From Elusimicrobiales bacterium (GTDB lineage Bacteria > Elusimicrobiota > Elusimicrobia > Elusimicrobiales > UBA9959), in NCBI GenBank assembly GCA_031082205.1, contig JAVHLJ010000019.1, forward strand, positions 1 to 45,714: a stretch of DNA of 45,714 nucleotides, read 5' to 3'. The notes below the pieces were generated by a model. That model saw only the letters and a list, made by a program, of their open reading frames with translations, ran no database searches and was not told the origin of the DNA. The translations under genes were made by a program, and so were the position numbers. Of the stretch, positions 2,919 to 36,490 are shown piece after piece (the stretch's first letter is position 1; each line of letters begins with the position of its first letter).

Positions 2919-4637
2919 TCAGGAGATCCAGACGAGCCCGGCCAGGATGAGGAACTGGCTGTCTATCAGCGTTTCCGCCAGCGTCTTCTCCGGCATCCGC
3001 CGGAAGTAGAAGAAGATCATCAGCCCCAGGTAGTAGAACATCCCCGCTATCATCGCGTTGACCAGCGGCTCCTTCCACGCCATGTTCTTGAGCGCTATCA
3101 GCACGCCCTCCATGAAGATGAAGATGGACAGGACGGCCGCGTAGGTGGCCTTGGGGCCGGCCGCCTTGTAGAAGTTCTCTTTTCCCACTATCATGTCGCT
3201 GTGCACGTGGCTGATGCCGAACATGACCGAGCGCGCGAAGACCAGCGTGAAGGCGAAGACCGCGGCGAGCTGGGACGATTTGTAGGCGAGAGAGCCGTAT
3301 GAGAGGGCAGGCAGGGCCGCGCAGACGAAGGCCCAGCCCAGCGCGGTCATGATGTCCTTGGAACCGGGGAATTTCGCCAAAGAGTCCAGGCCCAGGGGCA
3401 TTTTGTAAGGGTACAGCATGCCCATCCCCCAGAAGAAAGCGGTGAGCAGCAGGGCGAGGGGGCCGGTGGTCCCTGCGGCCAGCGCTATGGCCGCCACGCC
3501 GGCCAGAAGGGCCACGGCGCGGGTGGCCCGGCCGAAGCGGACGAAGAGAAGGTGCTTCGCCCTGTCGGGCACGGCCGTGCCTTTTTCGGCGGCGCGGTTG
3601 GTCAGGTGCAGGCTGAAGACGAAGAGGCCGGCCAGCGCCAGCATCTCGTAGCCGATAGGCAGGCCCTGGAGGCGCATCGAGGCGTAGGCCAGCGCTACCG
3701 CCGCTGCGGCTGTGAAGACGCAGCTGGTGACCGTCAGCAGCCAGAGGAACTCCAGGCGGGCTATGAACGGGGAGCGGCGTACCTCGGTCAGTTCGCGCGC
3801 GCGGGTCAGGACCTTCTCTATCATCCAGGCGGGCGTGGACGCGCCGGCGGTTATGAAGACGGAGGACGCGCCGTCGAAGAGTTCCGGGGAAAGCTCGTCC
3901 TCGCGCTCTATGTGTACGGCGCGCGGGGCGAGGCCGGAACAGATCTGGAAAAGGCGCGCCGTATTGGCGGAGTTCTTGCCTCCGACGACTATCACCAGTC
4001 CGCTGCGGCGGGAGAGTTCTACGGTCTCCTGCTGGCGCTGCTTCGTCGGGGCGCAGATGGTGTTGGAGATTATCAGCTCTCCGGTGTTCTGGCGCAGCGC
4101 CTCGACCGTCTTAAGGAAGACGTCGGTCTCCTGCGTGGTCTGTGCGACAATGTTGGCCTTCTCCAGGCGCGGCAGGCGCGCGGCCTCCTCCGGACCGCTG
4201 ACTACATGGCCGCGGCCGGCGGTATAGCCCATAAGTCCCACGACCTCGGCGTGGTCGGCGTCGCCCACGATGACGGTGTCGTAGCCCTTGTCCGCCCATT
4301 CTTTTATGTTGCGGTGCACCCGCTTGACCAGCGGGCAGGTGGCGTCCACGACATTGAGGTCCAGCGCCCTGACCGCCGATTCCAGTTCCGGAGGTATGCC
4401 GTGGGCGCGGATGACCAGCGTGGCGCCCTTTTCCTTTATCTCGGAGGCTTCCCTTACGGCCCGCACGCCCTTTTCTTCCAGCGTCTGTATGACCTGCTTG
4501 TTGTGGATGAGCGGCCCCAGAGTGTAGATGGGGCCTTTGCCGGCGGCGGCCAGTTCGAGGACCTTGTCGATGGCGCCTTTGACGCCCGGGCAGAAGCCCG
4601 CGCTGGCGGCCACCGTTATCTGCGCCCTGTAGGACAT
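2919..4637 (-). CDS. ispH: IspH (HMBPP reductase) fused to a UbiA-like membrane domain
   Basis: Residues 1 to about 285 are a complete IspH/LytB: the three Fe-S cysteines are Cys16 (GFCPGV), Cys101 (DATCPLV) and Cys195 (NTICAPT), with His45, His79, His129, Glu131, Ser223 and Asn225 at the known active-site positions. IspH makes IPP and DMAPP from HMBPP, the last step of the MEP pathway. Residues about 290-572 are an extra polytopic membrane domain with about eight hydrophobic segments. It resembles UbiA prenyltransferases in size and in segments such as GSKDIMTALGWAFV and DMIVGKENFYKAAG, but the aspartate-rich motifs look degenerate (NRAAE in place of NxxxDxxxD; one Asp left in the second). 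IspH alone is usually about 310 residues. The fusion would tether IspH to the membrane. The reductase call is firm, the UbiA relation moderate. Confidence 0.9.
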   Translation of the reverse strand: MSYRAQITVAASAGFCPGVKGAIDKVLELAAAGKGPIYTLGPLIHNKQVIQTLEEKGVRAVREASEIKEKGATLVIRAHGIPPELESAVRALDLNVVDATCPLVKRVHRNIKEWADKGYDTVIVGDADHAEVVGLMGYTAGRGHVVSGPEEAARLPRLEKANIVAQTTQETDVFLKTVEALRQNTGELIISNTICAPTKQRQQETVELSRRSGLVIVVGGKNSANTARLFQICSGLAPRAVHIEREDELSPELFDGASSVFITAGASTPAWMIEKVLTRARELTEVRRSPFIARLEFLWLLTVTSCVFTAAAAVALAYASMRLQGLPIGYEMLALAGLFVFSLHLTNRAAEKGTAVPDRAKHLLFVRFGRATRAVALLAGVAAIALAAGTTGPLALLLTAFFWGMGMLYPYKMPLGLDSLAKFPGSKDIMTALGWAFVCAALPALSYGSLAYKSSQLAAVFAFTLVFARSVMFGISHVHSDMIVGKENFYKAAGPKATYAAVLSIFIFMEGVLIALKNMAWKEPLVNAMIAGMFYYLGLMIFFYFRRMPEKTLAETLIDSQFLILAGLVWIS

Positions 4638-4643
4638 GCTGAA

Positions 4644-4652
4644 ATTCTATCA
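4644..4652 (-). promoter_or_regulatory. Extended -10 promoter of ispH
   Basis: On the minus strand TGA-TAGAAT (hexamer 4644-4649) ends 6 nt before the ATG at 4637, placing the expected +1 on the start codon. The 15-nt core TGATAGAATTTCAGC is identical to that upstream of the epimerase gene (36491-36505). Confidence 0.65.
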
Positions 4653-4706
4653 AATAGGGGTAACTATTCCGGGTGCTGCCGGGGACTAACCACGAAAAAA
4701 CGCCGC

Positions 4707-4909
4707 AGGCTCCCTCGCCGGGCCTTCACTTCGCCACGGGTTCGGCTTTCCGGAATGCACCCGGCGCTGCGCTCGGCCTGGCACGAACTCGGCCTGCGCG
4801 CATAGCGCGCTAGGCCTCAGACATTCATGCCCGTCCGCCGGAGGCGGTACCCTCGCTCCGCTTGGGGAAAGCCTCCGATGTGGCTTCGGAAGGCCCGGCG
4901 AGGGAGCCT
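4707..4909. repeat. Inner hairpin unit 1 (21-bp perfect arms)
   Basis: Positions 4707-4727 and 4889-4909 are perfect inverted repeats of 21 bp. The similarity continues inwards less perfectly (GGCTTTCC at 4746-4752 region against GGAAAGCC near 4865). Smaller stems lie inside, for example GCGCGC-ATA-GCGCGC around 4796-4810 and CCGCC-GGA-GGCGG around 4835-4847. Confidence 0.8.
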
Positions 4910-4927
4910 TGCCCGTCCAGCGTCCCA

Positions 4928-5117
4928 TAAGGAGACAGCCGGGGGATGGCGGGGCATCACTTAAGCAAAGCCGTCCGAAGGCCCGAGCTTACGGAGTATG
5001 CGCCGCAGCGTACGGTGCTTTGCTCCTCGCGGAAGCGAAGGCGCATACGAGCGCGAGGGCCGAGGTCGGAGCGCGAGTACGGTGTACGAGCGCGTCTTTG
5101 CGTAGTGATGCCCCGCC
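4928..5117. repeat. Inner hairpin unit 2, related to the unit at 36325-36462
   Basis: Begins with TAAGGAGACAGCCGGGGGA (4928-4946), which matches 36325-36343 at 18 of 19 positions. Then arms 4948-4970 and 5096-5117 pair, with a perfect 13-bp core (GGCGGGGCATCAC against 5105-5117) and a second block GCAAAG/CTTTGC. An inner 9-bp stem is at 4996-5004/5040-5048. The right arm runs into the uvrB promoter. Confidence 0.75.
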
Positions 5118-5142
5118 AGCACCCGGCATAGTTGTTCCTATT

Positions 5143-5151
5143 TGGTAGAAT
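5143..5151 (+). promoter_or_regulatory. Extended -10 promoter of uvrB
   Basis: TGG-TAGAAT (hexamer 5146-5151) ends 7 nt before the ATG at 5159, giving an expected +1 on or one base before the start codon. The upstream CCCGGCATAGTT matches CCCGGAATAGTT and CCCGGAATAATT ahead of ispH and the epimerase. Confidence 0.65.
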
Positions 5152-5158
5152 CGATAGT

Positions 5159-7189
5159 ATGACGGGCAAGTTCAAGCTGAAGGCGCCGTTCAGGGCGGCG
5201 GGCGACCAGCCGGCGGCGATAAAGAAGCTGCGCGCCGGCCTCGACGGCGGCCTGCGCGACCAGGTGCTGCTGGGCGTGACCGGCTCGGGCAAGACCTTCA
5301 CCATGGCCTCGCTCATAGCGGAGATGAACAGGCCGGCGCTGATAATATCCCCGAATAAAGTGCTGGCCGCCCAGCTCTACTCCGAGTTCCGCACCTTCTT
5401 CCCCGACAACGCCGTGGAGTATTTCGTTTCCTATTACGATTATTACCAGCCCGAAGCGTATATTCCTTCCACCGACACCTATATAGAGAAGGACTCGGCC
5501 ATCAACCAGCAGCTCGACAAGCTGCGCCTGAAGGCCACCGCCTCCATCCTCTCGCGGCCGGACACCATCGTGGTCGCCTCGGTCTCGTGCATCTACAATA
5601 TCGGCTCGCCCGAGAACTTCGCCAAGATGGGCCTCTATATCGAGAAGGGCCGCCCGCTCGGGCGCAGGGAACTGACGGAGCGGCTGGTGGCCATACGGTA
5701 CGAGCGCAACGACCTGGAGCTCTCGCGCGGCAAGTTCCGCCCGCGCGGGGCTTTCGTCGACATCTTTCCCGGCGATTCCGAGACGGCCTTCCGGATACAG
5801 CTTTCGGACGCGGTCGAGTCCATAGTCGAATTCGACCCGCTGACCGGAGCCGAGCTCAAAGAGCATAAGCACGCCTGGATATACCCGGCCAACCACTTCG
5901 TCTCCACTCAGGCCGAGATCGGGGAGGCGCTCAAGCTCATCTCGGCCGAGCTCGCGGAGCGGCTCGCCGTCCTGAAGAAAGAGAACAAGCTGGTCGAGGC
6001 GCAGCGGCTGGAGCAGCGCACCCGCTACGACATGGAGATGCTGGCCCAGACCGGCTACTGTCACGGCATAGAGAACTATTCGCGCCACCTGGCGGGCCGG
6101 CCAGCCGGCGAGCGCCCGGCCTGCCTTTTCGATTATTTCCCCGAGGATTTCCTCTTCTTCGTCGACGAGTCGCATGTCACCGTCCCGCAGGTGCGCGGCA
6201 TGTACGCCGGCGACCGCAGCCGCAAGCAGACGCTGGTGGACTTCGGCTTCCGCCTGCCTTCGGCGCTCGACAACCGCCCGCTCAAGTTCGACGAGTTCGA
6301 GGCGCTGCGCCCGCGCACGGTCTACGTTTCGGCCACGCCGGGGCCCTACGAGCTCGGGCTCGCGGGCAGGACGGCCATCGCAGAGCAGATAATCCGCCCG
6401 ACCGGCCTGACCGACCCGCCCGTGCGGGTGCTGCCGCTCAAAGGGCAGGTGAAAGCGCTGACCGAAGAGATAGAGAAGCGCGCTAAACTTAAAGAACGCA
6501 CCCTGGTGCTTACGCTGACCAAGAAGACCGCCGAGGACCTCAGCGAGTTCCTGGCCGGCAAGGGCGTGCGCGCGAAATACATACATTCCTCCATGGACAC
6601 GCTTGAGCGGCTGGACATACTGGGGCAGTTCAAGCGGGGGGAGTTCGACGCGCTGGTGGGCATAAACCTGCTGCGCGAAGGGCTGGACATTCCCGAGGTC
6701 TCGCTGGTCGCCATACTCAACGCGGACAACGAGGGTTTCCTGCGCAGCGAGACCACGCTGATGCAGATAGCCGGCCGAGCCGCGCGCAACAAATGCGGAG
6801 AGGTGCTGCTCTTCGCCGACAGGCGCACCGGCTCGATGGGCCGCGCGCTGGACGAGATGGACCGCCGGCGGAAGATGCAGATCGAATACAACGAGAAGCA
6901 CGGCATAAAACCCGAAAGCGTGGCCCGCCGCGAGCTGGCGGGGCTGGAACTCTACGAGGCCGACCGGGAACGCGGCTACGACCTGGTCAAGGACCTCTCC
7001 GCCGTGGCGGTGAAGCCGGAGAACGTGAAGGGCATACGCCTTCAGCTGGAGCGCGAGATGAAGGAAGCCGCCGACCAGCTGAACTTCGAGCTGGCGGCGC
7101 GGCTGCGCGACCGCCTCTTCGAGCTGGCCGACATGGCCGGCCCCGGCGGCAAGCCGCGCAAGGCCGGGCGGGGCCGCTCCCGTAAATGA
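5159..7189 (+). CDS. uvrB: Excinuclease ABC subunit B
   Basis: UvrB, the damage-verifying helicase-like subunit of nucleotide excision repair, which takes over from UvrA and recruits UvrC. About 676 residues, normal family length. Visible: Walker A GVTGSGKT (about residues 38-46), the DNA-clamping beta-hairpin region YYDYYQPEAYIP, the DESHVT Walker B, helicase motif VI QIAGRAARN, and a C-terminal UVR motif (DQLNFELAARLRDRL) that contacts UvrC. I start at ATG 5159, which matches family N-termini (GKFKLKAPF...GDQPAAI); upstream in-frame codons lie in the promoter. First gene of a four-gene run; its TGA overlaps the next ATG (ATGA at 7186-7189). Confidence 0.97.
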   Translation: MTGKFKLKAPFRAAGDQPAAIKKLRAGLDGGLRDQVLLGVTGSGKTFTMASLIAEMNRPALIISPNKVLAAQLYSEFRTFFPDNAVEYFVSYYDYYQPEAYIPSTDTYIEKDSAINQQLDKLRLKATASILSRPDTIVVASVSCIYNIGSPENFAKMGLYIEKGRPLGRRELTERLVAIRYERNDLELSRGKFRPRGAFVDIFPGDSETAFRIQLSDAVESIVEFDPLTGAELKEHKHAWIYPANHFVSTQAEIGEALKLISAELAERLAVLKKENKLVEAQRLEQRTRYDMEMLAQTGYCHGIENYSRHLAGRPAGERPACLFDYFPEDFLFFVDESHVTVPQVRGMYAGDRSRKQTLVDFGFRLPSALDNRPLKFDEFEALRPRTVYVSATPGPYELGLAGRTAIAEQIIRPTGLTDPPVRVLPLKGQVKALTEEIEKRAKLKERTLVLTLTKKTAEDLSEFLAGKGVRAKYIHSSMDTLERLDILGQFKRGEFDALVGINLLREGLDIPEVSLVAILNADNEGFLRSETTLMQIAGRAARNKCGEVLLFADRRTGSMGRALDEMDRRRKMQIEYNEKHGIKPESVARRELAGLELYEADRERGYDLVKDLSAVAVKPENVKGIRLQLEREMKEAADQLNFELAARLRDRLFELADMAGPGGKPRKAGRGRSRK

Positions 7190-8664: not shown

Positions 8665-9543
8665 ATGGACGCTGCGGATTCCGCGGCCCTGAAAAGACTG
8701 GCGCTGGAAGCCGGCGCGGCGGCCTGCGCCGTCGCGCCCGCCGGCCCGCTGGCGGCTCTGCCGGATTTCCGCGCCGCGCTGGCGGCCCAGGCTAAACCCG
8801 CTCCCGCCTGGCTGCTCCGCGAACCTGAGCGCCGCGCCGACATGAGGGCCTGGGACCCGTCCGCCCGCTCGGTACTGGTCTGCCTTTTTCCTTACTGGAA
8901 CTCCGCCCTCGAAAAGGAATTCGACGGCCTGCAGCCGGCCGATCCGGAGGCCCGCCTCCGAGACACGGGCCGCCGGAAGATCAACGCCCCGCTGCTGGAG
9001 CGGCTCCGCGCGGCCGGCGTAAAGCCGAAGGTTTCCCGCTACGCGCTCTCGCGCGATTACCACTCCGTCATAAGGGAGTCGCTCGAGGCCGCGCTCGACG
9101 GCGCCGCCCGCGTTTTTCCGGGGCTGGGGGGAAAGGTCTTCTGCGACACTTCCCGGGTCATGGAGAAGCCGCTGGCCGCCGCCGCCGGCCTGGGGTGGCG
9201 GGGCCGCAATACGCTGCTGCTCAATTCCCGGCTGGGCAGCTGGTTCTTCATCGGGGGCTTTACGCTCAATATGGATTTCCCGGCCGACGCCAGGCCGGAA
9301 TACACCGGCTGCGGCTCCTGCCGCGAGTGCGAGAAGGCCTGCCCGTCGGGCGCCCTGTCGGGCGGGCGGCTGGAGATATCGCGATGCCTGTCCTGGCATA
9401 ATACGATGGAGACCGCCGGCGGGCCTTTCGACGGCGAAGGCTCCGGCTGGGCCTACGGCTGCGACGAATGCCAAAAAAAATGCCCCTTCAACGAAGGGGC
9501 ATCGGGAACGGTCCCGGAATTCCTGAGGCCGCTCAGGTCTTAG
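8665..9543 (+). CDS. queG: Epoxyqueuosine reductase
   Basis: QueG, the cobalamin and Fe-S enzyme that reduces epoxyqueuosine to queuosine in tRNA anticodons. 292 residues, shorter than E. coli QueG (379), because the C-terminal HEAT-like part is missing. Seen: SRDYHSVIRE with the catalytic-type Asp, and two ferredoxin-like clusters, CGSCRECEKACPSGAL (about 213-228) and GCDECQKKCPFNEG near the C-terminus. The codons for QKKCPFNEGA contain eight consecutive A (9473-9480) and a perfect hairpin that reads as a terminator on the other strand. The last 11 bp overlap the convergent receiver gene. Last gene of the uvrB-nadC-birA-queG run. Confidence 0.92.
   Translation: MDAADSAALKRLALEAGAAACAVAPAGPLAALPDFRAALAAQAKPAPAWLLREPERRADMRAWDPSARSVLVCLFPYWNSALEKEFDGLQPADPEARLRDTGRRKINAPLLERLRAAGVKPKVSRYALSRDYHSVIRESLEAALDGAARVFPGLGGKVFCDTSRVMEKPLAAAAGLGWRGRNTLLLNSRLGSWFFIGGFTLNMDFPADARPEYTGCGSCRECEKACPSGALSGGRLEISRCLSWHNTMETAGGPFDGEGSGWAYGCDECQKKCPFNEGASGTVPEFLRPLRS
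9473..9502 (-). terminator. Intrinsic terminator of the receiver gene, inside queG
   Basis: On the minus strand a 10-bp GC-rich stem (9480-9489 with 9493-9502, loop 9490-9492) is followed at once by eight T (9480-9473). This is a textbook Rho-independent terminator about 30 bp beyond the receiver gene's stop codon, lying within queG codons. Confidence 0.9.
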
Positions 9544-36090: not shown

Positions 36091-36171
36091 CAGGCGGGCG
36101 CCCCGCCGCCCGGAGCTCTTTTCCAAGCTTTACACACCCCCGCTTTATCGAACAACCATCGGGGTCCTGTC

Positions 36172-36285
36172 GGCGGTTCGCTGCGAAAAAACAGGGTCTC
36201 GCACACCGTGCTCGCCCTTCCGACTCTCGCCGCTCGCGCTTACGCAAGCTCGCGGCTCCGGACGGTTTTTCTCCGCGAATCCGCC
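36172..36285. repeat. Imperfect inverted repeat unit
   Basis: Arms 36172-36192 and 36265-36285 (GGCGGTTCGCTGCGAAAAAAC against GGCGGATTCGCGGAGAAAAAC after reverse-complementing) agree at most positions apart from one-base shifts. The centre holds a smaller stem around GCCGC...GCGGC (36229-36256). Flanking AACCATCGGGG and CCCCCATTGTT extend the pairing loosely. Confidence 0.6.
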
Positions 36286-36324
36286 GCCACCCCCATTGTT
36301 TCCTGACTAACGCGGGGGCCTACG

Positions 36325-36462
36325 TAAGGATACAGCCGGGGGAGACGGGGTGAGAGCTTAGCGAAACCTTCACGGAGGCCGGAGCATCGCAAGCGCGGAG
36401 GCCGAGTGAGGAGGGCCGAGCGCTATGCGCGAGAGCCCGTGTTTCGCGTGCTCTCACCCCGT
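36325..36462. repeat. Hairpin unit related to 4928-5117
   Basis: Starts with TAAGGATACAGCCGGGGGA (36325-36343; 18 of 19 positions as in 4928-4946). Arms 36345-36357 and 36450-36462 are perfect 13-bp inverted repeats, followed inwards by GCGAAAC (36361-36367) against GTTTCGC (36441-36447). The same plan (a 13-bp perfect core, then a short second block) is seen in the unit before uvrB, though the arm sequences differ. Confidence 0.75.
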
Positions 36463-36490
36463 CATGCCCCCGGAATAATTTTCCTTAAAA

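Follow-up and report, generated by a model that had tools for sequence, protein, structure and literature searches.

A MITE/REP-like repeat family of Elusimicrobia with a composite copy between the divergent genes ispH and uvrB

Correia (NEMIS) elements of Neisseria are small mobile repeats that lie between genes, encode no protein, and combine terminal inverted repeats with strong stem-loops, both filled and empty sites being known; they measure about 107 or 155 bp, have TA at their termini, and have been reported to contain putative promoters (PMC2229807). RUP of Streptococcus pneumoniae is another non-coding mobile repeat, one that also mixes with insertion sequences, and its proposed parent with matching ends is IS630-Spn1 (PMC2229807). 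REP/BIME sequences and REPINs, with their RAYT/TnpA-REP proteins, are palindromic, intergenic, and multi-copy, and form mosaics of inverted units; their palindromes are imperfect, and the structure of the single strand is important in them (PMC8266576, PMC2817692, PMC3116915). TIMEs (Tn3-derived inverted-repeat miniature elements) are described as non-autonomous inverted-repeat elements forming mosaics (PMC4133298).

The window analyzed here (the whole stretch of DNA, 45,714 nt, from an Elusimicrobiales genome) has between ispH and uvrB a 521-bp block belonging to a repeat family that shares features with all four systems and differs from each. Its ends are not those of Correia elements, its copies, enlarged by nesting, measure between about 50 bp and more than 480 bp, and the promoters beside it are not its own. 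Unlike REP sequences, it is built of multi-branched hairpin units of about 100–200 nt, and no linked RAYT gene or common GTAG-type tag was identified; the sequence at the foot of the hairpin, where such a tag was looked for, is GGAGACAGCC at some ends and GGAATAACTATTCC at others. No parent with matching ends was found, in contrast to RUP, and, unlike in TIMEs, neither a Tn3-type transposase nor Tn3-type ends were recognized, in an outline comparison of the ends. We found no description of the family in the literature, in which our coverage of subscription journals was thin.

Both flanking genes were assigned from the open reading frame list and from relatives: ispH at 2919–4637 on the minus strand and uvrB at 5159–7189 on the plus strand. 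The sequence-only reading had bounded the whole block by imperfect inverted arms, and a repeat search confirms these at 4644–4703 and 5092–5151 (60 nt, 80% complementary), but about 12 bp at the outer side of each arm (AATTCTATCAAA and ATTTGGTAGAAT) align with the native promoters of a block-free relative and are not part of the element. The inserted composite element proper, about 485 bp with no strand assigned, spans ∼4655–5140, where similarity to the block-free relative ends and the family ends start, and consists of ends AAGGAAYAACTATKCCGGG and interchangeable hairpin modules. Its left terminal inverted end, TAGGGGTAACTATTCCGGGTG (4655–4675, plus strand), differs from the family end AAGGAATAACTATTCCGGG by three mismatches, and its right one, TAGGAACAACTATGCCGGGTG (5120–5140, minus strand), by two to three.

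Two inner hairpin units, one with perfect arms, had also been proposed and were both found. Module A (4707–4909, minus strand, on which it folds better) has 21-nt arms at 4707–4727 and 4889–4909 that match at 100%, and module B (4938–5127, plus strand) has 24-nt arms at 4938–4961 and 5104–5127 (92%); the better-folding strands of the two run in opposite directions. They are divided by an internal end, ATAAGGAGACAGCCGGGGG (4927–4945, plus strand), which forms the outer terminus where module B occurs alone, as in locus L006. The block folds far more stably than its shuffled versions on both strands tested (z −8.8 for the plus strand as DNA and −9.1 for the minus strand as RNA; 0 of 100 shuffles). 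No protein appears to be encoded, as previously noted: the open reading frames within the block are mechanical products of GC-rich DNA, and copies vary by indels and module swaps.

The block gave 68 matches in its own genome (E up to 10), with roughly 25–30 strong separate places on other contigs among the matches listed. Several of these copies sit where contigs stop, which fits a repeat that interrupts assembly. The three other genomes of the genus hold abundant copies, matches dwindle beyond the genus, and a related core was present in all ten genomes of the sister genus that were searched, at 5–50 matches each. The copies read share the end AAGGAAYAACTATKCCGGGGGC, inverted on the opposite side, and this end pattern matched 76 times in four genomes, compared with once for a reversed control. 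A third hairpin module, C, occurs at three loci (L002, L004, and L045), whereas the smallest copies, of 50–60 bp, are barely more than two ends (L044, and site S4 in genome G003). Like MITEs, the family is short, non-coding, and multi-copy with terminal inverted repeats, and, like REP/REPIN sequences, it is palindromic, extragenic, and high in copy number. Neither the phage and plasmid records searched for the element nor the viral contigs searched for the module A core gave a match; a single viral-contig match to the end sequence lay in AT-rich DNA without an element and was taken as chance. A second composite copy lies in the window itself at 36150–36488, with AAAATGATAGAATTTCAGC directly after its right end, which again places a −10-like box, TGATAGAAT, just outside the element.

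Copies are mobile by the evidence of orthologous sites, many of which are empty or hold a different mosaic. For 16 sites, the flanking sequences were located in the three relatives and the loci read; the genomes compared are draft MAGs in which repeats fall at the ends of contigs. Orthologous sites were empty at S6, S22, and S25 in G002 and at S15 in G003, and S17 and S44 lacked the element in G003; at S3, S4, S5, S7, S16, and S45, at least one relative had, in the corresponding position, a different module set or no module of these kinds. Presence and content thus vary between close species, and, together with the multiple copies in this and other same-genus genomes, this bears out the proposal that the block is a non-autonomous repeat. 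Changes in module content could reflect either fresh insertion or gene conversion between copies. No clear target-site duplication was seen at the empty sites read, where boundaries were blurred by divergence. Sister-genus sites without the core also lacked the arms, which rules out, for that genus, insertion of the core into a pre-existing hairpin. In relatives, these intergenic sites are also occupied or bordered by other palindromic repeats (L142, L137, and L077; e.g. GGGGACGTTGTTTAGTTCTTTAG, GGGACACAATACCTATTTCGGCC, and TAGGGGCTTGATTTATCAAGCCCG).

The sequence-only reading also proposed that the element brings or replaces promoters, with the −10 boxes of the two genes as its outermost bases. 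The boxes are where it placed them, TAGAAT lying 6 nt from the ispH ATG (4637) at 4644–4649 on the minus strand and 7 nt from the uvrB ATG (5159) at 5146–5151 on the plus strand, but they are native. A comparison of ispH–uvrB loci identified a same-genus genome without the block, G002 (L081), in which the gap is 48 nt and holds AATTCTATCAAAAAGGAATTATCGGATTTGTTAGAATTC with both TAGAAT boxes; the gap is the same in L075 (isolate X2_MetaBAT.4). Because both boxes are present there without the block, the outer parts of the supposed arms belong to the genes. That an element carrying outward promoters rewired its neighbors is therefore extremely unlikely, even though the boxes abut the element ends in this gap and the copy at 36150–36488 likewise ends just upstream of its TGATAGAAT box: TAGAAT followed by ATG after 3–9 nt recurs genome-wide (57 matches vs 11 in a control), no sigma-70 type −35/−10 pair was found across the block, and the sequence beyond the family ends varies from copy to copy, most copies not adjoining a start codon. 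The element does not, in the manner of Correia elements, supply the −10 box of a flanking gene.

The block-free gap of G002 contains AAGGAATTATCGG, similar to a worn element end, and may represent the footprint of a former copy instead of a site that was never filled, with the boxes still present without the element. Replacement of the sequence lying upstream of the two −10 boxes is the most that the block may have brought about. Both genes would probably still be transcribed from their own extended −10 (TGN-TAGAAT), a use that we presume from general knowledge of such promoters, the element having replaced only DNA further upstream. The locus carries a caution, in that native divergent promoters, being mirror images of each other, can mimic the tips of an inserted element. 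The ispH open reading frame (2919–4637) encodes 572 aa, of which the C-terminal half, beyond the IspH part, is long and hydrophobic, and this full-length form is also kept in other Elusimicrobia (L075–L077).

We aligned thirty copies of module A, three of them from other genera. RNAalifold gave 33 pairs, 17 of which showed double changes, and in a separate count 97.4% of cells were paired, with 0 of 500 shuffles scoring as high on any measure, although part of this contrast is built in because the structure was derived from the same alignment. Sliding the partner by one column lowered pairing to about 42%. Conservation extends to the unpaired bases, and wobble pairs are retained. In the sister-genus element, the arms beside the core vary from copy to copy and are still complementary, with a small offset.

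One strand of module A had the lower energy in 28 of the 30 copies. G-U to A-C cells numbered 72 to 6 on the favored strand and 70 to 21 on the other in module A, and 44 to 5 and 30 to 23, respectively, in the sister-genus element. This asymmetry was computed with RNA parameters and does not separate RNA from single-stranded DNA, and the predicted preference for one strand is suggestive. As the arms differ yet stay complementary and one strand folds better, the copies may be recognized as folded single strands. A family-wide class of mobile elements in Elusimicrobia recognized by shape rather than sequence, with arms changing together, growth of hairpin within hairpin, and a putative enzyme acting on single-stranded DNA or RNA, is a tentative extension that we regard as doubtful. 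The complementary arm variants offer natural material for testing recognition by shape.

Direct support exists for multiple copies, for orthologous sites that differ in the presence of the element and in its modules, for conservation of the ends, for covariation of the stems, and for native promoters, and the block is very probably a non-autonomous mobile repeat, two hairpin modules within short conserved inverted ends, inserted between pre-existing divergent −10 boxes. An enzyme supplied in trans would recognize the ends or the folded hairpin, perhaps in single-stranded form, as suggested by stems that keep pairing while their sequence changes and by the better folding of one strand. Larger copies would arise from hairpins inserting into resident copies or from recombination between them. 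The family is best described as a new MITE/REP-like repeat of Elusimicrobia that behaves as a non-autonomous mobile palindrome; we claim membership in neither class, since searches for a parent that shares the ends and for a linked Y1 transposase found neither. The family is large and apparently undescribed, and it continues to remodel intergenic DNA in a phylum most of whose members are uncultured.

What moves these copies is where the explanations diverge. An ordinary MITE derived from an insertion sequence, whose DDE transposase binds the inverted ends and whose covarying stems are by-products of template switching in palindromes, has an appreciable chance of being correct, though well below even: the terminal inverted ends are conserved across the family and very small end-only copies exist (L044, and S4 in G003). 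Yet no facing ends enclose a gene, and thus no autonomous partner or parent insertion sequence with the same ends was found, in the four draft genomes; the empty sites read show no clear target-site duplication; and template switching alone would not keep conserved unpaired bases and persisting wobble pairs. The family is also short, palindromic, intergenic, covarying, and strand-asymmetric, as expected of a REP-type element moved on single-stranded hairpins by a Y1 (HUH, IS200-like) transposase, and its own genome (G000) has a single Y1 gene (contig C14; L098, 1366–2110). We nevertheless consider such an origin unlikely, as the palindromes on either side of that gene (GGTAGC) are unrelated to the element, two sister-genus genomes (G032 and G035) carry at least 39 copies each without a Y1 gene, genomes G007 and G008 have 8–9 Y1 genes but nothing that matches the block, and no Y1 locus examined has an element beside the gene or shows the linked Y1 (RAYT) gene flanked by repeats that marks REP/REPIN systems.

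Very unlikely, in our estimate, is a structured RNA or regulatory element that is kept for the host and does not move. Strong covariation, invariant unpaired bases, and the many copies just after stop codons speak for it, but the Rfam 15 covariance models gave no match at the elements, the block contains no terminator-like site, strand bias relative to genes is absent (9 sense and 11 antisense among module A tandem pairs), and element presence varies between close species. The copies inspected are intergenic and run in either orientation, with no orientation bias toward flanking genes, and divergent gaps such as that of ispH–uvrB are where they occur least often (4 of 33 for module A and 2 of 22 in the sister genus, with genes guessed by simple longest open reading frame). 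Integron attC sites were rejected, as the ends do not, by eye, fit GTTRRRY.

Other candidate partners were set aside. Larger inserts at orthologous sites (L133, L137, L138, L150, and L154) carry unrelated genes, and, where contig C2 ends, an IS256-type transposase appears to disrupt a module B copy and not to be its parent; the Mutator/IS256-type fragment lies at about 9003–9491 of locus L087. The AAAAAGGTAGCTGCTACCTTTTT-type palindromes (GGTAGC) that bracket the C14 Y1 gene are unrelated to the element and may represent a separate REP-like system. On contig C77 (L088, 7835–9530), two AT-rich genes without a Pfam match adjoin a module B copy, with a purine-synthesis gene on one side and a gene resembling purF on the other, and AT-rich foreign genes also adjoin copies on contigs C2 and C24.
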